Origin: Mytilus galloprovincialis
Lineage: Eukaryota; Mollusca; Bivalvia; Mytilida; Mytilidae
Direction: 5' to 3'
DNA: 64,000 nt
Assembly (NCBI RefSeq): GCF_965363235.1
Contig: NC_134842.1
Location: 31,434,958 to 31,498,957 of the forward strand
Under the pieces are notes generated by a model, which saw only the letters and a program-made list of their open reading frames with translations, was not told the DNA's origin and made no database searches. Positions 7,019 through 28,600 of this stretch are shown here, piece after piece (the first letter of the stretch is position 1; every line of letters starts with the position of its first letter). Both the position numbers and the translations under genes were made by a program.

Positions 7019-7687
7019 ATGGCATGCCCAGTTTGTGGAGAGACTAGATTTAGGAGCGCAGCGCAGCAAACATGTCACACCGCCATGAATCATGGAACAC
7101 ACGGTTGTGGTTGTGGATACAAGTTTACTTCTAAAGAAGAATTAAAATCACACGAAAAAGCTATGAAGGAAAACATGAAAGAAAACCCTTGCTCCAGTTG
7201 TTGTCGGTCATTTGAAACAAAAAGGGCATTGACAGATCATCAGAGGGCTAAACTTCATGATTATACTAAACCCCCGAATCAGTGTGATTGTGGGAAAACA
7301 TGTAAATCTGCAAATGGTCTCGCTCAGCATATTCACGATAAACAAGAAAACTTGAAAATTCCAGATGCAAAATACAAAAGCAAAGGAGAATATTATGATG
7401 CGTATTACAAAAAAGATGTCAGGGTTAGCAAAGATGATCGTAAGGAGAGTGTTGGAAAGTGTCGTGACACGTTAAACCAAATCATGGATCATGTTCGCAA
7501 ACAAGAGAATGGCAAAATTTACAGCAGTGACATCAGAAAAGCCGGAAGTCATGCTACAAGAACCAAGGTCAAGAAAGCCGACGAATTTGACGTAAACATT
7601 GCTTTGAATATTCCTGTGGCTGACGTCAAGACAAAAGGGACAGTAAAGTATACCTACAAAGATAATTTGAATCCACGTGACCCGAAG
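7019..7687 (+). CDS. cGLR exon 1: zinc fingers and first catalytic motif
   Basis: 223 codons from ATG to the consensus donor AAG|GTAAGT. The open frame runs on into the intron to 7804, but the strong donor and the phase-matched next exon argue that the true exon ends at 7687. It encodes the whole finger array plus the GS...EFD half of the active site (G176, S177, E189, D191). Confidence 0.9.
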
Positions 7688-10600
7688 GTAAGTATTCAAA
7701 AACCTTATGTTGCAATTAACACAGCCCTACAGACAAATATCGGTTTATTTTGGATTGATCCGAAGTTTAATCAAGTGAAAAAGAGAGTACTCAACAGTGA
7801 TTAAAAATTAGTGTACTTTTATCTTGAAACAATGGAGACAATATTCCTTTTACAGTTAAAAATCCTCTCCGGCTTCTACGAATTAAAGATTTTTTTTACA
7901 TGGTTCTGACATATGATATATACTTTAACATGAACCTAGTGCAAACAATTGATACCTCCCGTTAGTATTTTCAAGGTATGGTCTCATCGAATCTGAAGGT
8001 AATAGTCCCATGACTTTATCTCACTTCAAAGTACAGTAAATATAGCAAGTTTCAAAATTAATTGTAGCTGATACCCAGACATACAATTCTAAAACTGAGT
8101 ATGATAAATAAGTCATGTCACTATTCAATGTATTTAGACCTGGATTTTCCAGCAATATTTTACCAAACATCTTTTTAATAAGATATTGCATTATTTAAAA
8201 CTGTTTAGAGTGCATCTCCAGAAAACCTAAATGTGAAAAGAGAAATTACTGCACTTCCCAAAGGCAGACAGAACCATATACCTATCGGATATGCTGTTGT
8301 TAAGGCTGAGGGAAATGCAAATATGGCAAGTAAAGTGACGTATAATGGGGACATCGTACCAAGAAAAGTTCAGGAGGATCTTTACAGCAAAATGAATACT
8401 GCTATCAAAGCCTTGAACTTTAAAGGTATTTATTGAACACTTTTCGTGATTTGCGTTCATACTGACGAACACGTCATCTTTCATATATCAAATAAAGAAT
8501 AAGAAGGGTATACCGTGTATTCGACAATAGGATATGAATGCAACAACCCACCTGCATATGTCAACAACCGGCCTTTAGCAATAAATATAACAAACATTAC
8601 CAGCTGTCGACAGAAAGTTAGAACATAATGAAAGAAAACAACAAATAACAAAATGAATAATAAACTTTAAACTAAGCCGTGTCATTTTAATCTCTTCTGG
8701 AGAGTTGTCTCGTTTGTAATCATACCACATCTTCTTCTTTTTTATTTAAAATTCAGGAGTCAATTAAAAAAAAGTATGGCAATAATGTATTTAATCTGTC
8801 AATAACTTATTTTTGAAAGGGAAAAGAGAGGTAGAAAACTAGAGGCTCTCAAGAGCCTGTATCGCTCACCTGATTCTACTTAGGTTTTTGAAATTATATA
8901 AAGAAAATATAAAATTTGGCTAAAAGTAACAATACTTGGCCAGCACCTCATACGGAAAGGAACATTCATGTATGTTTGATTTCATTCAATTCAGTGGTTC
9001 TTTAGACGAAGACTTTTGTATGCATTCCCCATAAGGTCCTATGTAAAATTAAGTCCCCCCCCCCCCCCATTGGCGGCCATCGTGGATGTTGCAATGACAA
9101 CAAAGTAACAACACTTAGTCAGCATCTCATAAGGAACATTTATGTTATGTTTGGTTTCATTCCATTCAGTGGTTCTCTAAAAGAAGACATTTAAATATAT
9201 TTCCCATAAGGTCATATGTTAAACTAAGTCCCCCACTGGCGGCCATCTTGGACGTTGGAATGGCGACAAAGTAACAACACCTGGTCAGTATCTCATTATG
9301 AACATTTATGTTATGTTTGGTTTCATTCCATTCAGACTTTTGTATGCATTCACCATAAGGTCCTATGTAAAACTAAGTCCCCCCATTGGCGGCCATCTTG
9401 GATGTTGCAATGACAACAAAGTAACAACACTTGGTCAGCATCTCATAAGGAACATTTATGTTATGTTGGTTTCATTCCATTCAGTGGTTCTCTATAAGAA
9501 GAAACTTGTATGTATTTCCCATAGGGTCATATGTTAAACTAAGTCCCCAACTGGCGGCCATCTTGGACGTTGGAATGGCGACAAAGTAACAACACCTGGT
9601 CAGTATCTTATTATGAACATTCATGCCATGTTTGGTTTCATTCCATTCAGTGGTTCTCTAAAAGAAGACATTTAAATATATTTCCCATAGGGTCATATGT
9701 TAAACTAAGTCCCCCACTGGCGGCCATCTTGGACGTTGGAATGGCGACAAAGTAACAACACCTGGTCAGTATCTCATTATGAACATTTATGTTATGTTTG
9801 GTTTCATTCCATTCAGACTTTTGTATGCATTCACCATAAGGTCCTATGTAAAACTAAGTCCCCCCATTGGCGGCCATCTTGGATGTTGCAATGACAACAA
9901 AGTAACAACACTTGGTCAGCATCTCATAAGGAACATTTATGTTATGTTTGGTTTCATTCCATTCAGTGGTTCTCTATAAGAAGAAACTTGTATGTATTTC
10001 CCATAGGGTCCTATGTTAAACTAAGTCCTCCGCTGGCGGCCATCTTGGATGATGGATCGGCTACAAAGTAAAAACACTTGGTCAGCACCTCATAAGAAAC
10101 ATTAATGTCATGTTTGGTTTTATTCCATTCAGTAGTTCTGTAAAAGAAGTCATTTGTATGCATTTCTAATAGGGTCCTATGTTGAACTAAGTCCCCCGCT
10201 GGCGGCCATCTTGGATGATGGATCGGCTACAAACACCACTTGGTCAGCACCTCATAAGGAACATTCATGCCATGTTTGATTTCATTCCATTCAGTGGTTC
10301 TCTAGAAGAAGTTCAAAACGTAAAAAGTTAATGACGACGACGACGACGGACGACGGACGACAACTGATGATAAAAGCTCAATTGGCCCTTCGGGCCAGGT
10401 GAGCTAAAAAGAGGGTCGAACAAAATTCATGTGTCTGAAAATATCCACCTTTAAATAATATTTGTATTTTATTCAGATGTGCATATTTCTAGAAATGCCC
10501 ATGGTCCAGCACTGACATTAACCAAAGCTGGTTCAAAAGGGAAACATGATATCAATATAGACGTCACTACAACGATTGGTGACAAACACGTACCAGTGAG

Positions 10601-12136
10601 TGTATACGGTTGGCCTCGTCCTGACACAAGTAAAGTTCTTTCGAAAAATACAATAGATAGAATTAACAACGTCGGAACCCACATGGTCCCTAAAGGAGGT
10701 GAATTTTGGAATGTATCGCACTCTAAAGCAGAGAAGGAGCTAATGAGAGGATTGGATACAGGGAACCAATGTCGCCGGCAATGTTACAAGATGTTAAAGG
10801 CAGACGTACAAACCTGGAAGTCGAGATCCACTGATAATTATCCGGGGATATCATCGCACCTTTTGAAGGTAAACATTTGGGGTCAAATGTAGTTTTATGG
10901 GTGAAATATTAGAGGATACCATAGGGCAATCACCATAATTTTAAGAAAAAGGAAAGACAACTACAAAGCCAAAACAGGATAGAAAAATAGTAGATAAATA
11001 TTCAAAACACTTACTGAGGATGAACCAATACAAATTTCGGTCTCAACTACACTATTAGTTGTCGCAGGAAGGTAGGTGTTGAAATTGCATGCAATGCTTG
11101 TCAAAATCAAGATGAGGAGGGTATGATTGATGCAACGGAGAATGCATTAACACATTTGTTCTCGTCTATGCAAAACATTTCTCATAACGATCAAACATGT
11201 CTTTCTTGAGTCCGTAGAACAAGAATGGCGTGGGGGAGGGATCAAGTTTATTTGAAATGTGGTCCAAGCGAATATTTAATACTGATAGTTGTTGGTCTTT
11301 TCGGAATCCCTCAGAGAAGACATGTCTTGCTCTTGTCTGATACCTTGTAGAGTACTGCGTTTATACCAGGGTTTGCTTTACGGTCGAGTTCACGCCAAGG
11401 GTCATATTTATAACATAAGTTTTTTTTATTGTTCTAAATATAAATGGAATGTATGAAGCTGCATAATAAGTAATTCTAGCATTTATATTTACTTTCTCAA
11501 AATTTAAAACTATACTGATGAATTAGAAGACGCATTAATAATAAACTCATCTTAGATACCATGATTAATTTTTTCGCCAGCCCGCGTTGCGTCTAATCAT
11601 CAGTGACGCTCGAATGAAAATGTTGAAAAATGTTTAAAAAGTCAAATAAAAAACGATATCTGAACAACAAAAAATACAATATGACTTAAACGTTAACTAA
11701 CGTCTTTTGAACTTATTGCATTTTTAAGTTTAACAAAAAAATCTAAATATATGTTGAAAAGACACTTTGTAAACAACAAGGCTATCATCAACATGATTAA
11801 GGGAAGATCTAAGTAAGACAAATCAGAATATTATATGACAAAAGAAAACTAATAAAAAAACATATATCTTACTCTATTTTTTAGCATTCAATGTTTTGGA
11901 TGAACGAACGACACCAACCCAACGATAAAGATTATTGGAACCAGAAAAACATTCACACCTGTTACACGGATAGTCTTAAGGCATTTAAAAGCCATTTGGA
12001 TCAGTGCAAACTTCCAGATTATTTCCATCCCATGAACAATATGCTCGGGAAAAAAGACAAAGACGTGTGTCATAGACTAGCTGGATGTGTGGAAGAAAGA
12101 AGAAATGAACTTTTACACATGAAGCTTCTTAAATGA
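7019..12136 (+). CDS. cGAS-like receptor (cGLR) with N-terminal zinc-finger array, 4 exons
   Basis: Exons 7019-7687, 8209-8425, 10477-10868 and 11885-12136 join in frame (phases 0, 1, 0) to 509 codons. Residues 1-107 hold four C2H2-like fingers: C3/C6/H20/H25; C30/C32/H45 with no fourth ligand; C58/C61/H74/H80; C89/C91/H104/H106. Residues 140-509 are a Mab21/cGAS nucleotidyltransferase: GSHATRTKVKKADEFD gives G176-S177, E189 and D191 with the Ser-to-Glu spacing of human cGAS, and the third acid is D324 in DINIDV. C-terminal landmarks are HGPALTL (304-310), FWNVS (372-376), CRRQC (394-398) and CYTDSLKAF. The mammalian zinc-thumb Cys cluster is absent, as in many invertebrate cGLRs. Known for the family: a ligand, often double-stranded RNA or DNA, triggers synthesis of a cyclic dinucleotide that activates STING. 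Ligand and product here are inference. All motifs look intact; a further upstream exon cannot be excluded. Confidence 0.9.
8209..8425 (+). CDS. cGLR exon 2
   Basis: 72 codons plus one base, from acceptor CTGTTTAG to donor AAAG|GTATTT. It enters in phase 0 and ends in phase 1. It encodes the stretch between the EFD strand and the third catalytic acid, including the helix DLYSKMNTAIKAL, in the expected order for Mab21 proteins. Confidence 0.82.
8838..10410 (+). repeat. Tandem-repeat element in cGLR intron 2
   Basis: It starts with the hairpin AGGCTCTCAAGAGCCT and the segment CGCTCACCTG. It contains about eight units of 150-180 bp marked by GTAACAACACTTGGTCAG, 'TTTGGTTTCATTCCATTCAG' and CTGGCGGCCATCTTGGA, and it ends with a GACGACGACG tract followed by 'GGCCCTTCGGGCCAGGTGAG' and CTAAAAA. 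Start and end share GCTCACCTG in inverted sense. Blocks around 9284-9764 and 9764-10080 repeat as a higher-order unit of about 480 bp. This architecture is a bivalve repeat type I recognise. Frames such as 9298-9537 are products of the repeat, not genes. Confidence 0.8.
10477..10868 (+). CDS. cGLR exon 3: third catalytic acid and Mab21 core
   Basis: Acceptor TTATTCAG and donor GAAG|GTAAAC; the two leading bases complete the split Asp codon from exon 2. It encodes HGPALTL, DINIDV (D324), GWPRP, FWNVSHSKAEKEL and CRRQCYKMLK, which line up in order with human cGAS segments (PAVTLL, ISVDITL, WRLSFSHIEKE, CRKDCLKLMK). Only about eight residues separate the EKEL helix from CRRQC, which leaves no room for a zinc thumb. 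Confidence 0.9.
11885..12136 (+). CDS. cGLR exon 4: C-terminal helical lobe and stop
   Basis: 83 codons plus TGA, phase 0 after acceptor TTTTTTAG. The segment NIHTCYTDSLKAFKSHL, then KLPDYFHPMNNML and ERRNELL, matches the last helices of cGAS-type proteins (human LGLCFDNCVTYFLQCL, KLENYFIPEFNLF). The protein ends normally, so the C-lobe is complete. Confidence 0.88.
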   Translation, partial: HSMFWMNERHQPNDKDYWNQKNIHTCYTDSLKAFKSHLDQCKLPDYFHPMNNMLGKKDKDVCHRLAGCVEERRNELLHMKLLK

Positions 12137-15701: not shown

Positions 15702-16699
15702 TCACTTTTTATTAATATTTAATTTTATATGTTGTTTTTCGTATAAAGCCAGATAAAAAAGAGATGCACAAAAAGATAAAACAGCAGCAATTGTGAAACT
15801 CCATGTAAAACAATGGGTCCCGTAGCAGTCTTTTTGACTTTTAAATGGTATGGCCATTTCGTATGTCCACCCATATAGTTCCTGTATTCCAAGTCCACCT
15901 AAACCCGTAGTAAATAATATAAACCCCCAGTTTCTACCGAAATATTTCATTCCATAGTTTTCACCAGTTATTGTCGGTGTTAAGCACCATAACGATCCAT
16001 TAGCCATACCAACTATTATAACTAAGAATAATAGCATTGCAAAGTGACTTGAAAAGAATATACAAAATATAAGAAAAACTGTCTGAATAATAGTAAATGT
16101 CAATAAAACAGCTACACGAGGAACTCGATCTAGAAGAAAGTCGGATAAAAATCCGGCAAACACCTTCGATCCGACTTGAGCTATAGGATTTATAGTCGTA
16201 AACAAAGTTGTATATTTGTCGAGACTAAATGATTTGAGATAAGTTCCAATGTTACTTTGAACCATCAGCTGTAAACTTGATGCAAATGTACAAGACCACA
16301 AAATAAACTGAAAATCAATGGTCTTGAAAAGTGTCCATCCGGTCACGTGATTAGCAACTAATGTTTCGTCTGCTGTTTCGTCAGCTTTGTCGTCTGCTAC
16401 AAGCAATCCTTTAATTTCGGTATCTTCGCTAAACGATATTGAACGACTGAATATCATACTAAGAATTCCTACTGCAATATATAATATTGCAAATGTTAGA
16501 TAAAATCCTTTTAGATCCTGGTTTTGTTCATCAGATGTATGTCCGTTAACAAAGACTGTTCCATAGATAAATGCTGTGAGGGCAGGCCCTGCACTAAAAC
16601 ATCCATCTAAAATGCCAACCACCTTTCCTCTATGCCGGGGATGAAAATTGTTCATATTTGTCATCAGTGAAGCCATGTAAATATATGCAGAGCCGAAGC
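15702..16699 (-). CDS. Transporter exon 3 (most of the protein and stop)
   Basis: Acceptor TTTTATAG; its first two bases complete a Gly codon split with exon 2. 332 codons including TAA. It encodes roughly helices 4 to 12 plus the central cytoplasmic loop and ends in a short basic tail (KLNINKK). No frameshift or internal stop. Confidence 0.88.
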
Positions 16700-19600
16700 C
16701 TATAAAATAAATAATTGCAATAAAATATAAAATCTATTTTTAGTGTATTTGGTAAATAAACAGTAGTAACAAGTAATTCCAAAGCAAACAATTAAAATGC
16801 GCAGCCTCCGTTTAAGGACCTTCTTACAATTGATAATTGTCTCTATTGATAATCATTTCAATTGTACATTGTACATTAAGTTTTGTTCTAATTGTTAAAT
16901 CCATTTGTCTAACTATTTGAATGGTGACAAAGTAATGTTTATGAAAAGTACATCGTATAAAAAAATACAAAAGAGCGTTGTTACATGTATACCAAATAAT
17001 AGATAAACAAAAAAAAGAAAATTATAACATTTTTTCAAAACTGTGAAAAATAAAATATGAAGCATACATGTACCTGTCAAAAAATAATAAAGATACTGCA
17101 AAGCAGGTCTTTCCTCATAAAATTCTATTGATAAAGTTGTTGACCATAACATGATGGCACCAGTTCCCGAAAAAACTATAGCAACAAATGAAGTCCATCT
17201 AGGTCCAAATCTCTCGCATAATATTCCAGCTGGAAAAGCGAAGGTCACACCAAAATTTGACAAGGATCCCATGAGATCGACTGGAAATACAATAGGATAT
17301 AAAAATGTATTTTTAAAAAGATCTCGAAAATCCTTTTAATGTGTTCGTTTTCATTTTTAAAAAGTATTAATATGATGTTTTTCTTTATAATTCATATTTC
17401 TAAAGTCTTTACCGTCGATTAACTAAAAAAACAACAACATTTAGATGACTGTTTCAACAAATTTGCAAAACAAAAGAGTATATCCAAATTCAAAACGCTA
17501 ATTCATCAAGGCAGTTTTATTTATAATTATCCTGATGTAGTTATGATGGATAGCTCATATGTTTGAATAAGTCTATTTGTTGTGATGAAATTCTTCTTAG
17601 ATAGTAAATGATGATGTATTTTTAATTAATTATACATAAAATATTAATTTCAAAAAGACATGTCAAATGACATCCGTGTACTTTTAAAAAAAATATTTAC
17701 ACGGCCAAACAGGATACAGGTTAATAATGATGTAAACGAATTTTGTGGTTAATAACTACTTTATTTCGATTGACATATCACAGGGTACATCGTTTATTAA
17801 GGTTCGTTTGATCTCTAAATTTGATTAACCGACATCCGTGTACTTTTAAAAGTAGCAAAACAGATTTTTTTTTCCGTCGTGGTAATAGTCTGCGCTATCA
17901 TATGGTTTATATGAATTATTATAATGGACGTCAAGTTGGTTACCTATTCCCTATTCCCTATTCGTTACCTATTCCCTATTCCCTATTCGTTACCTATTCG
18001 TTACCTATTCCCTATTCCCTATTCGTTACCTATTCGTTACCTATTCCCTATTCCCTATTCGTTACCTATTCGTTACCTATTCCCTATTCCCTATTCGTTA
18101 CCTATTCGTTACCTATTCCCTATTCCCTATTCGTTACCTATTCGTTACTTATTCCCTATTCCCTATCGTTACCTATTCGTTACTTATTCGATTTTTAATA
18201 TCCTTCCCCCTTTTTAATTAATTATTATGTCACCCGATCGACAATGTCGGGTGACATATTGCTTTTCCTCTGTTTCTTTTTCCCTATTATTATTATTATT
18301 ATTATTTTTCTTCCACCTAATTTTGTCCGGCAGTTTATTTGGAGCCAAAGGAACCAATCTGAATGATGGTGCACTATAACAAAGAACCCTGACTTTCCAG
18401 TTGCAGTGCAACTTTGGAACTAAAAAATGGCTGCCATCACCATGGAAACGGGAAAATGGTGAAAAAATATTATTTTAGAGTTCAGCCAATTATTTGAGAA
18501 TGGTTATGCTTAAAATCTTTAGATTTTGATACAATGTAGGTGCCCACTATACACTGGTTTTGGGATGATTTTGGCAATCATTGGAAATGCTATGTTGCCA
18601 TGGATACTACACCAAAAATTTCCAAAATATGGAAATGCTCCAAATTTAATGAAACTTCACAGAAATGATGAGCAACATTGGAACATGTGGAATTTGGCAT
18701 TGGAATTTCCAAAATGTCTGCCGTTTCCATGGAAACAATGCAATTATGGTAAAAATGGTCCAAAAACCCCTAAAAGTGGCATTTACTTTCTTAAAAGGGT
18801 AGGTCAAATCCATTGAAACTCTGATGGTATGTTCCCTCCCATGTACCAATGTGGTATCTGCCATTAGAAATTTGGAATGGTCTGTGTAACCATAGAAACC
18901 AGCCAAAATGTCGAAAATTTCAAAAATTTCAAAATGCTCAAAAAGTAATGAAACTTACTATAATTGTTGACCGTCAAGTCTGCTTGAAACTTTTGAAGTT
19001 GGAATTTCCAAAATGGCTACCGTTGCCATGGAAACTGGAAAAATGTCAAATATTTTCAAAATGCTCCAAACTTAATGAAACTTAATAATATTGTAAACTG
19101 GCATGTATAGATGAGACTTTTGACTTTGAAACTTTCAAAATGGCTGCCGTTGCCATGGAAACAGCAAAAATGTCATATTTTTAAAAATGATCTAAATGTA
19201 CTGAAAACTTACAGAAAAATGTATAGCCATGCAAATATATGCATTCACTGTTAAAAGTTTTTGAAATGGCTGCCGCTTAGTGGCAATGTGGGGAAGGGTG
19301 ACATCCGCTATTGCTTGCAATGGCAATTCTAGTTATTCTTCTTCTTCCTCTTCTTCTTCCGCCACTTTAAAAATGAACTTGTCCGCAGCATTTCTCCAAA
19401 ACTACTTGTCAGATTTACTTAGGGTTTCATAAAATGTTAGACTAATATGTCTAGGTGAGCCATCAATCGCTCATTTGTGCATTGGGGTCTATTAAGGGGT
19501 ATTTTGGAGGGCAGAAAGAAGGGAGGGGTTTACTATAGAACCCTATGGGATTTTATTTTCTAAAATTTTCAAATGAATATAACTTGAAAACTGTAAGTGA

Positions 19601-22600
19601 TAGATACATGCAGTCTTCAGAAATGATTAAAGGACAATAACACAAATCACATGAAATATAGGGGAGTCCCTGGGGGGGGGGGGGGGGTCATCCCTACCCC
19701 CTTCAATTCGAGAATATACTTTTAACTTGTAAACGGTCAACATCCCCACCCCTAAACTATATATATTCTTGTAAGGGACAATAAAACTAATCAAATGAAA
19801 TTAAATAGAAGTTCCTGGGGGTCACCCCCACCCCGTTCAATTTGAGAATGTACTATTATCTTGTAAATGGTCAAGATCCCCACCCCTAAACCATATATAT
19901 TCTTGTAGGGGACAATAAAACAAATGAAATGAAATAAAAGGAAAGTCCCTAGGGGGTCAGCCCACCCCCTCTTGTTTGAAAACTTGTAAACGGTCAACAT
20001 CCCCACCCCTAAACTATATATATTCTTGTAAGAGACAATAAAACTAACCAAATGAAATTAAATGGAAGTTCCTTGGGGTCTGCCCCACCTCGTTCAATTT
20101 GAGAATGTACTATTATCTTGTAAATGGTCCAGATCCCCACCCCTAAACCATATATGTTCTTGTAGGGGACAATAAAACAAATAAAATGAGATAAAAGGGA
20201 AGTCCTGAGGGGGTCATCCCACCCCCTCTTGTTTGAAAACTTGTAAACGGTCAACATCCCCACCCCTAAACAATATATATTCTTGTAGGGGACAATAAAA
20301 CAAATAAAATGAAATGTTAGGTAAAGTTCCTGGGGGTCACCACCACCCCCTCCTGTTTGAATACTTGTAAATGGTGGAGATCCCCACCAGTAAGCCATAT
20401 ATATTCTTGTATGGGACAAAAAAATCAAATCAAATGAACATGGGACCATATGAATTGCGAGTTATGGGAGCTTTGTTTGGGAGACCTCGTAACAGCATCC
20501 TGTTACAATTACTTCTTGTTGTTTATACTCTTATATCTGGTACTAGTTCTAAATTTGTTGAGGTAAAATGATCTTTTTATGACCTATTTATATGTGTTTG
20601 TGTTCAACCGATCCTTTTACTTTATGTTCGATACTCATTTGTTCCTTATTTGATTTTTATACGTTCTACCTTTTAACTGCTTTATGTCCGTATGTTTGAA
20701 GATGGATCTTGGTTCGAAGGGATGAAATCACCGTGTTAGCGCTTGCATAAAAAAAAAGATGTGGTATAATTGCCAATGAGACAACAACCCACAATAGACT
20801 AAAATGACACAGAAACTATCAACTATAGGTCAATGTACGGCCTTCAACAATGAGCATAGCCCAAACCGTGTAGTCACCTATAAAAGGCCCAGATATGACA
20901 ATTTCAAACAATTCAAACAACAAAACTAACGGCCGTATTTCATATACAAAAAAATAACGGAAAACAAATATGTAACACAAAAACAAACGATAAGTACTTA
21001 ATTTCAGGCTCTTGTCTAGGGAGAGGCACATACTAACATAATGTGGTGGGGTTAAACATGTTAGCAGGGTGTACATCGTTTCGGAGCTTGCTATTACCTT
21101 GTTTAATTCGTTCCATCACTCGCTTATAATTCGCTTATAATACGTGTATCATACGTTGCACCTTTTAAAACATGATTTTCAATTGTTTTGTTGTCTCTGG
21201 TGGTAGATTCTTAGAGGTGATATAACTCTATAAGCGCATATGTACCCGTTCCAGCGCTCGGATAATACCCTGTTACTTATTCGTTCCTTATTCGCTTTTA
21301 ATGCGCGGGGTAAGTATAAGTTGCACCTTGAAATAAATCGTTTTTTAATTGTGTTCATGTCTCTGGTGGTAACAATGTGTTCTTAGAGATGAAATGACAC
21401 TATTAGCGCGCATGTACCCGTTCCAGCGCTCGGTTAATACCCTGTTACCTATTCGTTACCTATTCGTTACCTATTCACTTATAATACGTTTGTTGTACGT
21501 TGCACCTTTTAGAAAAGGATTTTCAATTGTGTTCATGTCTCTGGTAGTAACAATGTGTTCTTAGAGATGAAATAACCCTATTAGCGCATATGTACCCGTT
21601 CCAGCGCTCGGTTAATATCCTGTTACCTATTCGTTACCTATTCGTTACTTATTCGCTTTAAATACGTTTGTTGTACTTTGCACCTTTTAGAAAAGGATTT
21701 TCACTTGTGTTCATGTCTCTGGTGGTAACAATGTGTAATTAGAGATGAAATGACCCTATTTCTAAAAGGTGCAACGTACAACAAATGTATTAAAAGCGAA
21801 TAAATAACGAATAGGTAACGAATAGGTAACAGGGTATTAACCGAGCGCTGGAACGGGTACATGCGCGCTAATAGCGTCATTTAATCTCTAAGAACACATT
21901 GTTACCACCAGAGACATGGACACAATTGAAAATCTTTTTCTAAAAGGTGCAACGTACAACAAACGTATTATAAGTGAATAGGTAACGAATAGGTAACAGG
22001 GTATTAACCGAGCGCTGGAGGGGGTACATGCACGCTAATAGGGTCATTTCATCTCTAATTACACATTGTTACCACCAGAGACATGAACACAAGTGAAAAT
22101 CCTGTTCTAAAAGGTGCAAAGTAGAGCAAACGTATTTAAAGCGAATAGGTAACGAATAGGTAACAGGATATTAACCGAGCGCTGGAACGGGTACATGCGC
22201 GCTAATAGTGTCATTTCATCTCTAAGAACACATTATTACCACCAGAGACATGAACACAATTGAAAATCCTTTTCTAAAAGGTGCAACGTACAACAAACGT
22301 ATTCTAAGTGAATAGGTAACGAATAGGTAACAGGGTATTAACCCAGCGCTGGAACGGGTACATGCGCGCTAATAGTGTCATTTCATCTCTAAGAACACAT
22401 TGTTACCACCAGAGACATGGACACAATTCAAAATCCTTTTCTAAAAGGTGCAACGTACAACAAACGTATTATAAGTGAATAGGTAACGAATAGGTAACAG
22501 GGTAATAACCGAGCGCTGGAACGGGTACATGCACGCTAATAGGGTCATTTCATCTCTAATTACACATTATTACCACCAGAGACATGAACACAAGTGAGAA

Positions 22601-25600
22601 TCCTTTTCTAAAAGGTGCAACGTACAACAAACGTATTATAAGTGAATAGGTAATGAATAGGTAACAGGGTATTAACCGAGCGCTGGAACGGGTACATGCA
22701 TGCTAATAGGGTCATTTCATCTCTAATTACACATTGTTACCACCAGAGACATGAACACAAGTGAAAATCTTTTTCCAAAAGGTGCAACGTACAACAAACG
22801 TATTATAAGTGAATAGTTAACGAATAGGTAACAGGGTATTAATCGAGCGCTGGAACGGGTACATGCGCTCTAATATGGTCATTTCTTCTCTAAGAACCCA
22901 TTGTTACCACCAGAGACATGAACACAATTAAAAAACGATTTATTTCAAGGTGCAACGTATACTTACCCCGCGCATTAAAAGCGAATAAGGAACGAATAAG
23001 TAACAGGGTATTATCCGAGCGCTGGAACGGGTACATATGCGCTTATAGAGTTATATCACCTCTAAGAACCCAAATCTACCACCAGAGACAACAAAAAAAA
23101 ATTGAAAATCATGTTTTAAAAGGTGCAACGTATGATACACGTATTATAAGCGAATTATAAGCGAGTAATGGAACGAATTAAACAAGGTAATAGCATGCTC
23201 CGAAACGATGTACACCCTGCTAACATGTTTAACCCCACCACATTATGTTAGTATGTGCCTCTCCCTAGACAAGAGCCTGAAATTAAGTAGTTATCGTTTG
23301 TTTTTGTGTTACATATTTATTTTCCGTTATTTTTTTGTATATGAAATACGGCCGTTAGTTTTGTTGTTTGAATTGTTTGAAATTGTCATATCTGGGCCTT
23401 TTATAGGTGACTTCACGGTTTGGGCTATGCTCATTGTTGAAGGCCGTACATTGACCTATAGTTGATAGTTTCTGTGTCATTTTGGTCTATTGTGGGTTGT
23501 TGTCTCATTGGCAATTATACCACATCTTTTATTTATGCAAGCGCTAACACGGTGATTTCATCCCTTCGAACCAAGATCCATCTTCAAACATACGGACATA
23601 AAGCAGTTAAAAGGTAGAACGTATAAAAATCAAATAAGGAACAAATGAGTATCGAACATAAAGTAAAAGTATCGGTTGAGCACAAACACATATAAATAGG
23701 TCATAAAAAGATCATTTTACCTCAACAAATTTAGAACTAGTACCAGATATAAGAGTATAAACAACAAGAAGTAATTGTAACAGGATGCTGTTACGAAGTC
23801 TCCCAAACAAAGCTCCCATAACTCGCAATTCATATGGTCCCATGTTCATTTGATTTGATTTTTTTGTCCCATACAAGAATATATATGGCTTACTGGTGGG
23901 GATCTCCACCATTTACAAGTATTCAAACAGGAGGGGGTGGTGGTGACCCCCAGGGACTTTACCTACATTTCATTTTATTTGTTTTATTGTCCCCTACAAG
24001 AATATATATGGTTTAGGGGTGTGGATGTTGACCGTTTACAAGTTTTCAAACAAGAGGGGGTGGGATGACCCCCTCAGGACTTCCCTTTTATCTCATTTTA
24101 TTTGTTTTATTGTCCCCTACAAGAACATATATGGTTTAGGGGTGGGGATCTGGACCATTTACAAGATAATAGTACATTCTCAAATTGAACGGGGTGGGGG
24201 TGACCCCAAGGAACTTCCATTTAATTTTATATGGTTAGTTTTATTGTCTCTTACAAGAATATATATAGTTTAGGGGTGGGGATGTTGACCGTTTACAAGT
24301 TTTCAAACAAGAGGGGGTGGGCTGACCCCCTAGGGACTTTCCTTTTATTTCATTTCATTTGTTTTATTGTCCCCTACAAGAATATATATGGTTTAGGGGT
24401 GGGGATCTGGACCATTTACAAGATAATAGTACATTCTCAAATTGAACGGGATGGGGAAGACCCCCAGGAACTTCCATTTAATTTCATTTGATTAGTTTTA
24501 TTGTCCCTTACAAGAATATATATAGTTTAGGGGTGGAGATGTTGACCGTTTATAAGTTTTCAAACAAGAGGGGGTGGGGTGACCCCCTAGGGACTTTCCT
24601 TTTATTTCATTTCATTTGTTTTATTGTCCCCTACAAGAAAATATATGGTTTAGGGGTGGGGATCTGGACCATTTACAAGATAATAGTACATTATCAAATT
24701 GAACAGGGTGGGGGTGACCCCCAGGAACTTCCATTTAATTTCATTTGATTAGTTTTATTGTCCCCTACAAGAATATATATGGTTTAGGGGTGGGGATCTG
24801 GACCGTTTACAAGATAATAGCACATTCTAAAATTGAACGGGGTGGGGATGACCCCCGGGGACTTCCATTTAATTTCATTTGATTTGTTTTATCGTCCTAT
24901 TCAAGAATATATATGGTTTAGGGGTGGGGATCTGGACCGTTTACAAGATAATAGTACATTCTCAAATTGAACGGGGTGGGGTGACCCCCAGGAACTTTTA
25001 TTTAATTTCATTTGATTAGTTTTATTGTCCCATACAAGAATATATATGGTTTAGGGGTGGGGATCTGGACCGTTTACAAGTTAAAAGCATATTCTCGAAT
25101 TGAAGGTGGTAGGGATGACCCCCCAGGTACTCCCCTATATTTCATGTGATTTGTGTTATTGTCCTTTAATCATTTCTGAAGACTGCATGTATCTATCACT
25201 TACAGTTTTCAAGTTATATTCATTTGAAAATTTTAGAAAATAAAATCCCATAGGGTTCTATAGTAAACCCCTCCCTTCTTTCTGCCCCCCAAAATACCCC
25301 TTAATAGACCCCAATGCACAAATGAGCGATTGATGGCTCACCTAGACATATTAGTCTAACATTTTATGAAACCCTAAGTAAATCTGACAAGTAGTTTTGG
25401 AGAAATGCTGCGGACAAGTTCATTTTTAAAGTGGTGGAAGAAGAAGAGGAAGAAGAGGAAGAAGAAGAATAATAATTAATTAAAAAGGGGGAAGGATATT
25501 AAAAATCGAATAAGTAACGAATAGGTAACGATAGGGAATAGGGAATAAGTAACGAATAGGTACGAATAGGGAATAGGGAATAGGTAACGAATAGGTAACG

Positions 25601-28600
25601 AATAGGGAATAGGGAATAGGTAACGAATAGGTAACGAATAGGGAATAGGGAATAGGTAACGAATAGGTAACGAATAGGGAATAGGGAATAGGTAGCGAAT
25701 AGGTAACGAATAGGGAATAGGGAATAGGTAACGAATAGGTAACGAATAGGGAATAGGGAATAGGTAACGAATAGGGAATAGGGAATAGGTAACCAACTTG
25801 ACGTCCATATTATTATACTGAATATGTTGTTATAACTGTCCATCAAATTTTAAATTGAAAGTAATTAACTAAGACGTTTTGTTTTTTCAGGCATCGTTGT
25901 CAATATAATAGCATTTAGACTGTTATATAAGTGAGAGGTTTAGCTAGCTATAAAACCAGGTTCAAACCACCAAGTCAGGAATATGACATTTGTTATCGTT
26001 TTCGTTTGATGTGTTTGAGCTTTTGATTATGATCATTTGATTAGTGACATTCCTTTTTGAATTTTCCTTGGAGTTCAGTATTTTAGTAATTTTACTTAAA
26101 ACATGATATATCCGTATTTAATTAAGCGTCGTCGTGATTGGAAATAGGAAGCCTGACATGTGATAGGGTAACTATCCCCTTTGTGTTAACCAATTAAAAA
26201 CCTGGCATTTTAACATGAAGTATAATACATACGAAGAATTCAAAGGACGGTTCGTTATACATACAGTGTTAAAACTAACGATATAGTAATTCAAACAAAG
26301 ACATAGTATACTACTCATTATTTCGACTCTGAGCCTACCAGAATTTATCCTGCCCTTATTCCTAACATCATCCGATCAGTGATAAAAAATATTATGCTAT
26401 CCTAAAATAGAACGTCACAAAGACACAAAAGACGCAACTCTTTCCTGACCAGTCTTTCAATTCATTAAAAATGGCCTTTTAATTTTCATCCTTCGCCACG
26501 ACTTTAATGCATTTTAGCTATCATATCAAAATAACTTTGAAGAATGGAATTTTTCATTTGCAAACAAACAAATGTTAGCACGAAAAACTAGTGCATAATG
26601 TTCAGGTTAACCGTGACCTTTTTTAGTTTTTCTCTTGATGATAATTTTTATATCAATAGTAACGCTCTGTCTACTTTGGACTTTTTTATGAGGTTAATCA
26701 TAGAAATCGTGAATATTCTTTTTATTGATATCGCTTGTGAATATCGATATATTTTTTGATAGCTGGTCTATTTAATTTAAGTTTTCATTTGTTAAAGTTG
26801 GCAATATCAGTATTAAAGTGTGATATGTTTTGGTCATGTTGAGGACTCAAGGAGACCATGTGGAACCAACGATAAGGCATATACCTCCCACTTGTGACGT
26901 CATCGTAGAAGGATAAGTAGGTTGTTTTGGTATACACTCTACATTTGGTGTAGGACTTGACGTACAGGGTACCAGCCGTGATTATATTCTTGAAAGAGTC
27001 ACACCAGATAGACTACCGATGGTTAAGTCACGAATAATTAATGGTTAACACAATATGACTCACATTAAATCAATAATCATAGTTAGTCTAACACTTTTTA
27101 TCAATGGTCTATACTGGACGCGATGCAATGATAATCATCTTTCACGATTTTGTGTTTAATTTTCCAGTTACAATAATCGTGTCCGAACTGATTTCCTTTA
27201 AGAGATGATCACATGACCTTACGGTGATTTCTCTGAATCAGAACCTGTATTTTGCCAAGGATCTAACACAGAGGAGAAATAAACGCAACAGTAGTATACC
27301 GAAAATTCATAAATCGAAATAGAAAAAACAAACCCGGATAACAAACTAAAACCGAGGGAAACGCATCAAATATAAGAGAACTATGACACAACATTAAAAT
27401 GTAACACACACAAAAACGAACTACAATATAACAATGGCCATTTTCCTGACTTTGTACAGGACATTTTAAGAAAAAAAATGGTGGATTGAACCTGGTTATG
27501 TGGCATGCCAAACCTCCCGCTTTAATAGCAATGTTAAATATAACATTTAAATGACAACATTACATGACAGGACTACAATACAAATAAATGGGAGAAAATA
27601 TAAGACAGAGAAACACGAATAATAGTCAACAAAAGGTACAGGTTTAAAAATTGTCATCATCTGGTGCTCAATAATCCCAAAGTCGTCAACCGGTCATGAT
27701 ACAAGGGCAACAAATATATCCGTCAAAAAGCGAACTACTTTGTACGAAAGTTTGAGTATGCAACAAGGGATCAAACGGGTTCCGTTTAATTGACAAGAAA
27801 GCTAGAACACCCAAAAAGTTGATAATGAGCATCAACGCCTTACGCACAGGCAGATGAAACGATGCAAGTATGATGACCTTTAAACAAGGTGAACAAAGGG
27901 TAGATAAAGAAAGGCAACAGTAGTCGTAGTCTCGATCATCCAGCCGCTTTATTTTTCAAAGTAGAGCGTCTGGATGAAAAGTGATATAAAAATGGTTATT
28001 TATGACATTCGGAATAATATCGGCTTTTTTAGCTAGTTGTCAATAGGCGTGTTTTATTTTCTTTCAACATGTTTGAGGTTGAATTCAACCAATAACCTGG
28101 TTAAGAGTTAAACTTAAAACATGTTTCAACACAAAATAAAACGGATTAACCAAAAAAACCTTAAACAAAAACAAAACTTTAAAACAGATACTGGCAGCTT
28201 TGCAACAAAATAGAAATGTGTATTAAAGAAGACAACAAATTAAAACTGTTATTTAATAATAATTGGAATCCGTTTTTAGGATAAAGAACATGCTTCTATT
28301 TCTACATCTTCCAATCATGAATGTGTTTATATTCGCACTAGATGAAAAAGTTAAACAAGAAATTTATAAAGCATATATTACACCAGCAGCTTATCATGAA
28401 AAAGTGGTTCCCTTTTCAAGTGATGATCTTTGATATATTCATGTACAATTTTCAAGACATATTTTCAACTAAACAGAAGAACTTTTGCCCGATTTTCTTG
28501 GATTTTTTGCATAGGAACCCAAACAAGGTCCAAAATTAATGTCCTGGTAAATCAGCTATTTCTGTAGAAAAGCAAGCTGTTGTTGCATTGTGGTTCACAA

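Follow-up and report, generated by a model that had tools for sequence, protein, structure and literature searches.

A zinc-finger array fused to a cGAS-like receptor core in bivalves

Introduction

A locus of the mussel Mytilus galloprovincialis raises the question of whether an array of zinc fingers is genuinely joined to a cGAS-type nucleotidyltransferase, and what such fingers might do for the enzyme. A wider question is how cGAS-like receptors (cGLRs) distinguish between DNA and RNA and between self and foreign. The window analysed here is a stretch of 64,000 nucleotides of contig NC_134842.1, and the predicted product of the gene is referred to as the window protein.

According to the preprint text of Li and colleagues (PMC9980059), 3,020 cGLRs have been reported, 87% of them without extra domains, and some bivalves encode more than 200 cGLR proteins. 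The same source describes cGLR fusions to ankyrin, TPR and death domains (the latter in a coral) as well as proteins with second or multiple cGLR domains; like the window protein, these carry an extra domain appended to a cGLR. The words "Zinc" and "C2H2" do not occur in the preprint main text, which refers to its Table S2 for fused domains, and the fusion is not mentioned in the available text of PMC10732462, PMC12928593, PMC12424679, PMC10855445, PMC9127187 and PMC10854198. In the literature listings and article text covered, no study of a zinc-finger cGLR was found. In the databases, members of the family are present under automatic names ("C2H2-type domain-containing protein", "zinc finger protein 423-like", "cyclic GMP-AMP synthase-like"). 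Thus, the parts are known and the combination is deposited, while the fusion has apparently not been studied.

Gene structure and exon joins

The gene lies on the forward strand and is composed of the following parts:

7019..7687, + strand: exon 1, 669 nt, residues 1-223, with ATG start and donor AAG/gtaagt
8209..8425, + strand: exon 2, 217 nt, residues 224-295 and the first base of codon 296, with acceptor tttag/AGT and donor AAG/gtattt
8426..10476, + strand: intron 2, containing a 166-bp satellite
10477..10868, + strand: exon 3, 392 nt, to residue 426, with acceptor attcag/ATG and donor AAG/gtaaac
11885..12136, + strand: exon 4, 252 nt with stop, residues 427-509, holding most of the Mab-21_C helical domain (394-496)

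The four phase-matched exons proposed from the sequence alone hold up: with GT donors and AG acceptors throughout, they join to a 1530-nt in-frame open reading frame encoding 509 residues. Exon 1 (223 codons) contains all four finger-like units and the beginning of the nucleotidyltransferase, including G176-S177 and E189-F190-D191, leaving D324 (exon 3, 10560-10562) as the sole catalytic residue encoded elsewhere. As fingers and enzyme start share one uninterrupted frame, the fusion is independent of any splice prediction.

The database protein P0001, likewise of 509 residues, aligns with the window model gap-free over 509/509 positions, 441 of them identical (87%). Its K223 and S224 are contiguous, which would be the counterpart of the join 7687/8209. 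Since the window gene extends over 5.1 kb, 2 kb of it in the second intron, and the P0001 contig measures 2163 nt, this contig probably represents either a spliced transcript or something copied from one. P0017, in turn, matches the exon-1 frame including read-through into intron 1 at 252 of 261 positions and looks like unspliced DNA or RNA from the same or a very near locus. In P0016, P0034 and P0035, which are closest to P0002 of Mercenaria (70-72% identical in the covered part of its core), the sequence diverges directly after the Lys matching the end of exon 1; this suggests read-through into an intron and, hence, an intron 1 position common to them and the window gene. Further copies of the family were not found in the window: tblastn with the candidate, P0001 and P0002 as queries (E up to 1e-2) returned matches to the four exons only.

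The zinc-finger array

Four finger-like units precede the enzyme:

7025..7093, + strand: finger 1, residues 3-25, C-x2-C-x12-C-x5-H; ligands identical in 10/10 relatives having the residue; helix predicted at 14-25
7106..7153, + strand: finger 2, residues 30-45, C-x-C-x12-H, fourth ligand not clear; beta-beta-alpha unit predicted
7190..7258, + strand: finger 3, residues 58-80, C-x2-C-x12-H-x5-H; weak match to Pfam zf-C2H2_4 at 57-77
7283..7330, + strand: finger 4, residues 89-104, C-x-C-x12-H, fourth ligand not clear; weaker prediction, pLDDT of the block 64-75

Only finger 1 (C,C,C,H) and finger 3 (C,C,H,H) have a full set of clear ligands, fingers 2 and 4 being of the CxC...H type. Finger 3 contains an extra cysteine, C62, that is invariant across the 14-row finger alignment; a role for C62 as the absent fourth ligand of finger 2 is conceivable. 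Pfam C2H2 models stay below their cut-off in the window protein (best 14.3 bits versus 27). The assignment as C2H2 zinc fingers is nevertheless supported by Cys and His ligands that are unchanged in 13 alignable relatives, by a structure prediction, made on the relative P0001, that gives finger 1 a helix and fingers 2-4 a beta-beta-alpha fold each, and by a profile including the fingers that matches C2H2 arrays.

Across the family, 70 fingers show x5 or x4 spacing and none x3, and TGEKP-type linkers are missing from the family rows; both features separate these fingers from two insect controls. The spacing C-x2-C-x12-H-x5-H is that of the dsRNA-binding JAZ/ZFa type, x5 being typical of dsRNA-binding fingers. 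It is present in finger 3 and, with Cys for His, in finger 1; wig-1 and JAZ are named as dsRNA-binding finger proteins in PMC3274543. Pfam zf-C2H2_jaz is matched by 4 of 15 members, the window protein not being among them. A reading of the fingers as dsRNA-specific was considered and toned down, given that the solved structures most similar to the fingers belong for the most part to arrays that bind DNA. Among the 50 matches listed in the finger structure searches, none is a dsRNA-binding finger protein by entry title; these searches do not favour dsRNA over DNA.

The nucleotidyltransferase core

The enzyme is recognized by Pfam as Mab-21 (PF03281; residues 181-387, E 2e-14, 54.5 bits) and Mab-21_C (residues 394-496, E 5.7e-17, 62.2 bits), each against a cut-off of 24.1. 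The architecture of fingers followed by a Mab21/cGAS nucleotidyltransferase is borne out.

7544..7591, + strand: catalytic G176-S177 ... E189-F190-D191, invariant in 21/21 aligned relatives

The spliced translation confirms G176, S177, E189, D191 and D324 at the positions given by the sequence-only reading, and all five are invariant in the 21 aligned relatives. D320 was rejected as the third carboxylate: position 320 is D, H or Q among the relatives, while D324 does not vary in any of the 21, and in the profile alignment D324 stands opposite the corresponding Asp of Sp-cGLR1 and cGAS. The claim of a "complete active-site pattern" stands for the carboxylates. It does not extend to the position that we take to be R376 in human cGAS numbering, where the window protein has Asn and Arg is found in 0/21 readable rows, window protein included.

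When a family profile built from six members was compared against the PDB, the best match was Sp-cGLR1 (E 1e-32), far ahead of MAB21L1 (2.5e-10) and MB21D2 (3.2e-7). On sequence grounds, the enzyme groups with cGAS and the cGLRs rather than with MAB21L1 or MB21D2, with which the window protein has the Mab-21 fold in common at far weaker similarity. In a structure prediction, which the sequence-only reading had proposed as a check, the model, folded from P0001 as an 87% identical stand-in, matches the known cGLR/CD-NTase fold.

The literal motif printed in PMC9980059 (h[QT]GS ... X50-90) does not describe the window protein, which has AGS and a gap of 132, nor Sp-cGLR1, which has KGS and a gap of 104. 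The printed limits look too tight, because a solved cGLR also departs from them. For the same reason, the idea that the family was missed by the published cGLR survey through breakage of the motif was dropped.

Comparison with known receptors

The closest solved relative is Sp-cGLR1 of Stylophora pistillata (PDB 8gjy), which is the best match by both the family profile and Foldseek with the P0001 model (E 7.8e-17). It has the same catalytic carboxylates as the window protein and, like it, a residue other than Arg at the R376 position (Cys); in contrast, its solved chain has no finger array, and the gap between its second and third carboxylates is shorter (104 versus 132 residues). According to PMC9980059, Sp-cGLR1 senses dsRNA and produces 3'3'-cUA.

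Vertebrate cGAS differs in several respects. Its zinc thumb (H-C-C-C, in the C-lobe) has no match in the window protein in alignments with the pig and mouse enzymes: the insertion carrying the thumb H, C and C is without counterpart, and only the last Cys is aligned. In addition, vertebrate cGAS possesses a disordered basic tail where the window protein has fingers, and the latter has Asn at the R376 position.

A bivalve protein of the same superfamily is the oyster cGLR of PDB 8gjw (E 5e-22), the solved chain of which is without fingers and, unlike the window protein, retains Arg at the R376 position. PMC12424679 assigns 8gjw to C. virginica, and the preprint reports a dsDNA-activated cGLR from this species, which is presumably the protein seen in that chain.

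Distribution and evolution of the family

Homologue searches retrieved 38 proteins, two of which are insect proteins matching by their fingers alone. Of the remaining 36, 16 carry an organism name, and all 16 come from bivalve genera, in agreement with the mollusc origin proposed from the sequence: Mytilus coruscus, Pinctada imbricata, Sinanodonta woodiana, Potamilus streckersoni, Mercenaria mercenaria, Ruditapes philippinarum and Mactra antiquata. Taxonomy look-up placed four of these seven genera in Mytilida, Pterioida, Unionida and Venerida; the other three we take to be bivalves as well. As M. coruscus is represented here by a core fragment only (P0010), the named finger-bearing species belong to Pterioida, Unionida and Venerida, and the case for Mytilida is the window itself. 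Among the 38 homologues (18 organism-named), which were found by a search that needs shared 5-residue words, there was no named non-bivalve with fingers and enzyme. The fusion is not a one-off and recurs in bivalves of several orders. It is a real, conserved variant of the cGAS-like receptor family.

Strict fingers are present in 23 of the 33 rows carrying the GS...EFD motif, window included; some of these rows are fragments, P0010, P0029, P0031 and P0033 were left out for want of the motif, and P0018 and P0019 served as controls. The number of units varies from none (P0015, P0020, P0025, P0030) to nine CxxC in P0024 and six CxxC plus four CxCG in P0006. Both types occur within one species, Mercenaria having fingerless (P0015, P0020) and fingered (P0002, P0027) members. 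A tree was built from 22 family rows and two long outgroups, with 7 of 21 inner branches open and the oyster 8gjw left out. The four rows without fingers occupy two separate positions in it, and two changes of the finger label are required; P0026, the degenerate fingers of which escape the strict pattern, was labelled as fingered, and the fragment P0022 was put in no group. This pattern fits an early fusion that may have been followed by later losses.

Several members depart from the common layout. In P0023, P0036 and P0037, most or all of the finger region gives way to long, repetitive basic tails that recall the N-terminus of cGAS, with net charges before the GS motif of +51, +45 and +51, respectively; P0023 also has one strict finger. 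In P0008, P0026 and P0028, a hydrophobic, signal-like stretch is seen by eye ahead of the finger region, which is odd for a cytosolic sensor. P0010, the named match of highest identity to the window protein (66% over 191 residues), has a core that runs into an unrelated repetitive C-terminus and is likely to be another mussel paralogue, caught in a composite gene model.

Proposed function and alternative explanations

We lean, with some reserve, towards a bivalve cGLR in which the N-terminal finger array aids ligand capture and choice by a nucleic-acid-triggered cyclic dinucleotide synthase with a STING-type readout. The window protein is basic (pI 9.4; core 9.6, finger block 8.7), and the pI exceeds 8.5 in 18 of 20 relatives, the exceptions being P0020 (7.95) and P0030 (7.48). 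As dsDNA- and dsRNA-sensing cGLRs are described in the preprint text of Li and colleagues (PMC9980059) as having a pI above 8.5, this agreement favours a synthase activated by nucleic acid. The nucleotidyltransferase would be caged and inactive until its basic face and the fingers jointly bind foreign nucleic acid; the fingers, as folded modules in the role of the disordered basic N-terminus of vertebrate cGAS, would increase affinity and help to choose the ligand. The ordered active site (GS loop, E189, D191, D324) could then link two NTPs into a cyclic dinucleotide, to be read by a bivalve STING-type receptor. From the loss of R376 together with the closeness to Sp-cGLR1, we infer that a product other than 2'3'-cGAMP, for example a 3'3'-linked or pyrimidine-containing cyclic dinucleotide, is more likely.

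It is very improbable that the locus is an artefact, whether through fortuitous open frames, an incorrect join or gene decay. Pfam gives no above-cut-off finger call in the window protein, but the fusion lies within a single open exon, the full-length relative P0001 aligns without gaps, and named species from three further orders share the architecture. Less easily set aside, though still unlikely, is an enzyme as proposed whose fingers serve protein interaction, dimerisation or self-inhibition instead of binding nucleic acid. The atypical CxC...H fingers, the extra C62 and the lower pI of the finger block as compared to the core would suit such a module, as would the ankyrin, TPR and death domains, all of them interaction modules, that other cGLRs carry according to PMC9980059. 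However, the finger-including profile and weak fold matches point to nucleic-acid-binding C2H2 arrays, and the region ahead of the GS motif, into which part of the core falls, carries a net positive charge in 32 of the 33 motif rows (P0025 being 0). The earlier suggestion that the fingers could bring their own nucleic-acid recognition or self-inhibition to the enzyme is only weakly favoured.

A catalytically silent or developmental Mab21-like protein that acts through contacts with other proteins, a mode suggested for Mab21 proteins of shrimp, appears improbable. The absence of Arg at the R376 position from all 21 readable rows would be in line with it; yet the shrimp proteins are described as being without essential nucleotidyltransferase residues, while here these residues are invariant, and the family is far nearer to cGAS and the cGLRs than to MAB21L1 or MB21D2.

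Significance

If the fingers do contribute to sensing as favoured above, a folded array would stand at the place of the disordered tail of vertebrate cGAS. More speculatively, bivalves may possess a family of modular sensors whose cGAS-type core is steered by swappable, expandable finger arrays (0 to about 10 units), some members having basic tails instead or a signal-like leader ahead; changes in the fingers would then direct the core to other foreign nucleic acids, with products other than 2'3'-cGAMP. Arrays of differing length on one core, with fingered and fingerless members within Mercenaria, offer a direct test of whether ligand choice and threshold reside in the module or in the core.

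Other features of the window

8957-10311: satellite within intron 2, 8.3 copies of 166 bp
15702-16733 and 16913-17335, - strand: major facilitator superfamily transporter frames adjoining the gene
17924-25808: large inverted repeat, arms about 17924-21760 and 22538-25808

The satellite is flanked, by eye, by CAGGTGAGC and its complement and resembles what we take to be a bivalve pearl-type element. The transporter frames match the domain MFS_1 with E 2.3e-23 (15702-16733) and, below threshold, E 0.0047 (16913-17335). The inverted repeat is built of tandem arrays with units of 134, 167/178 and 36 bp that run in opposite directions, its best block comprising 2045 columns at 96% identity.
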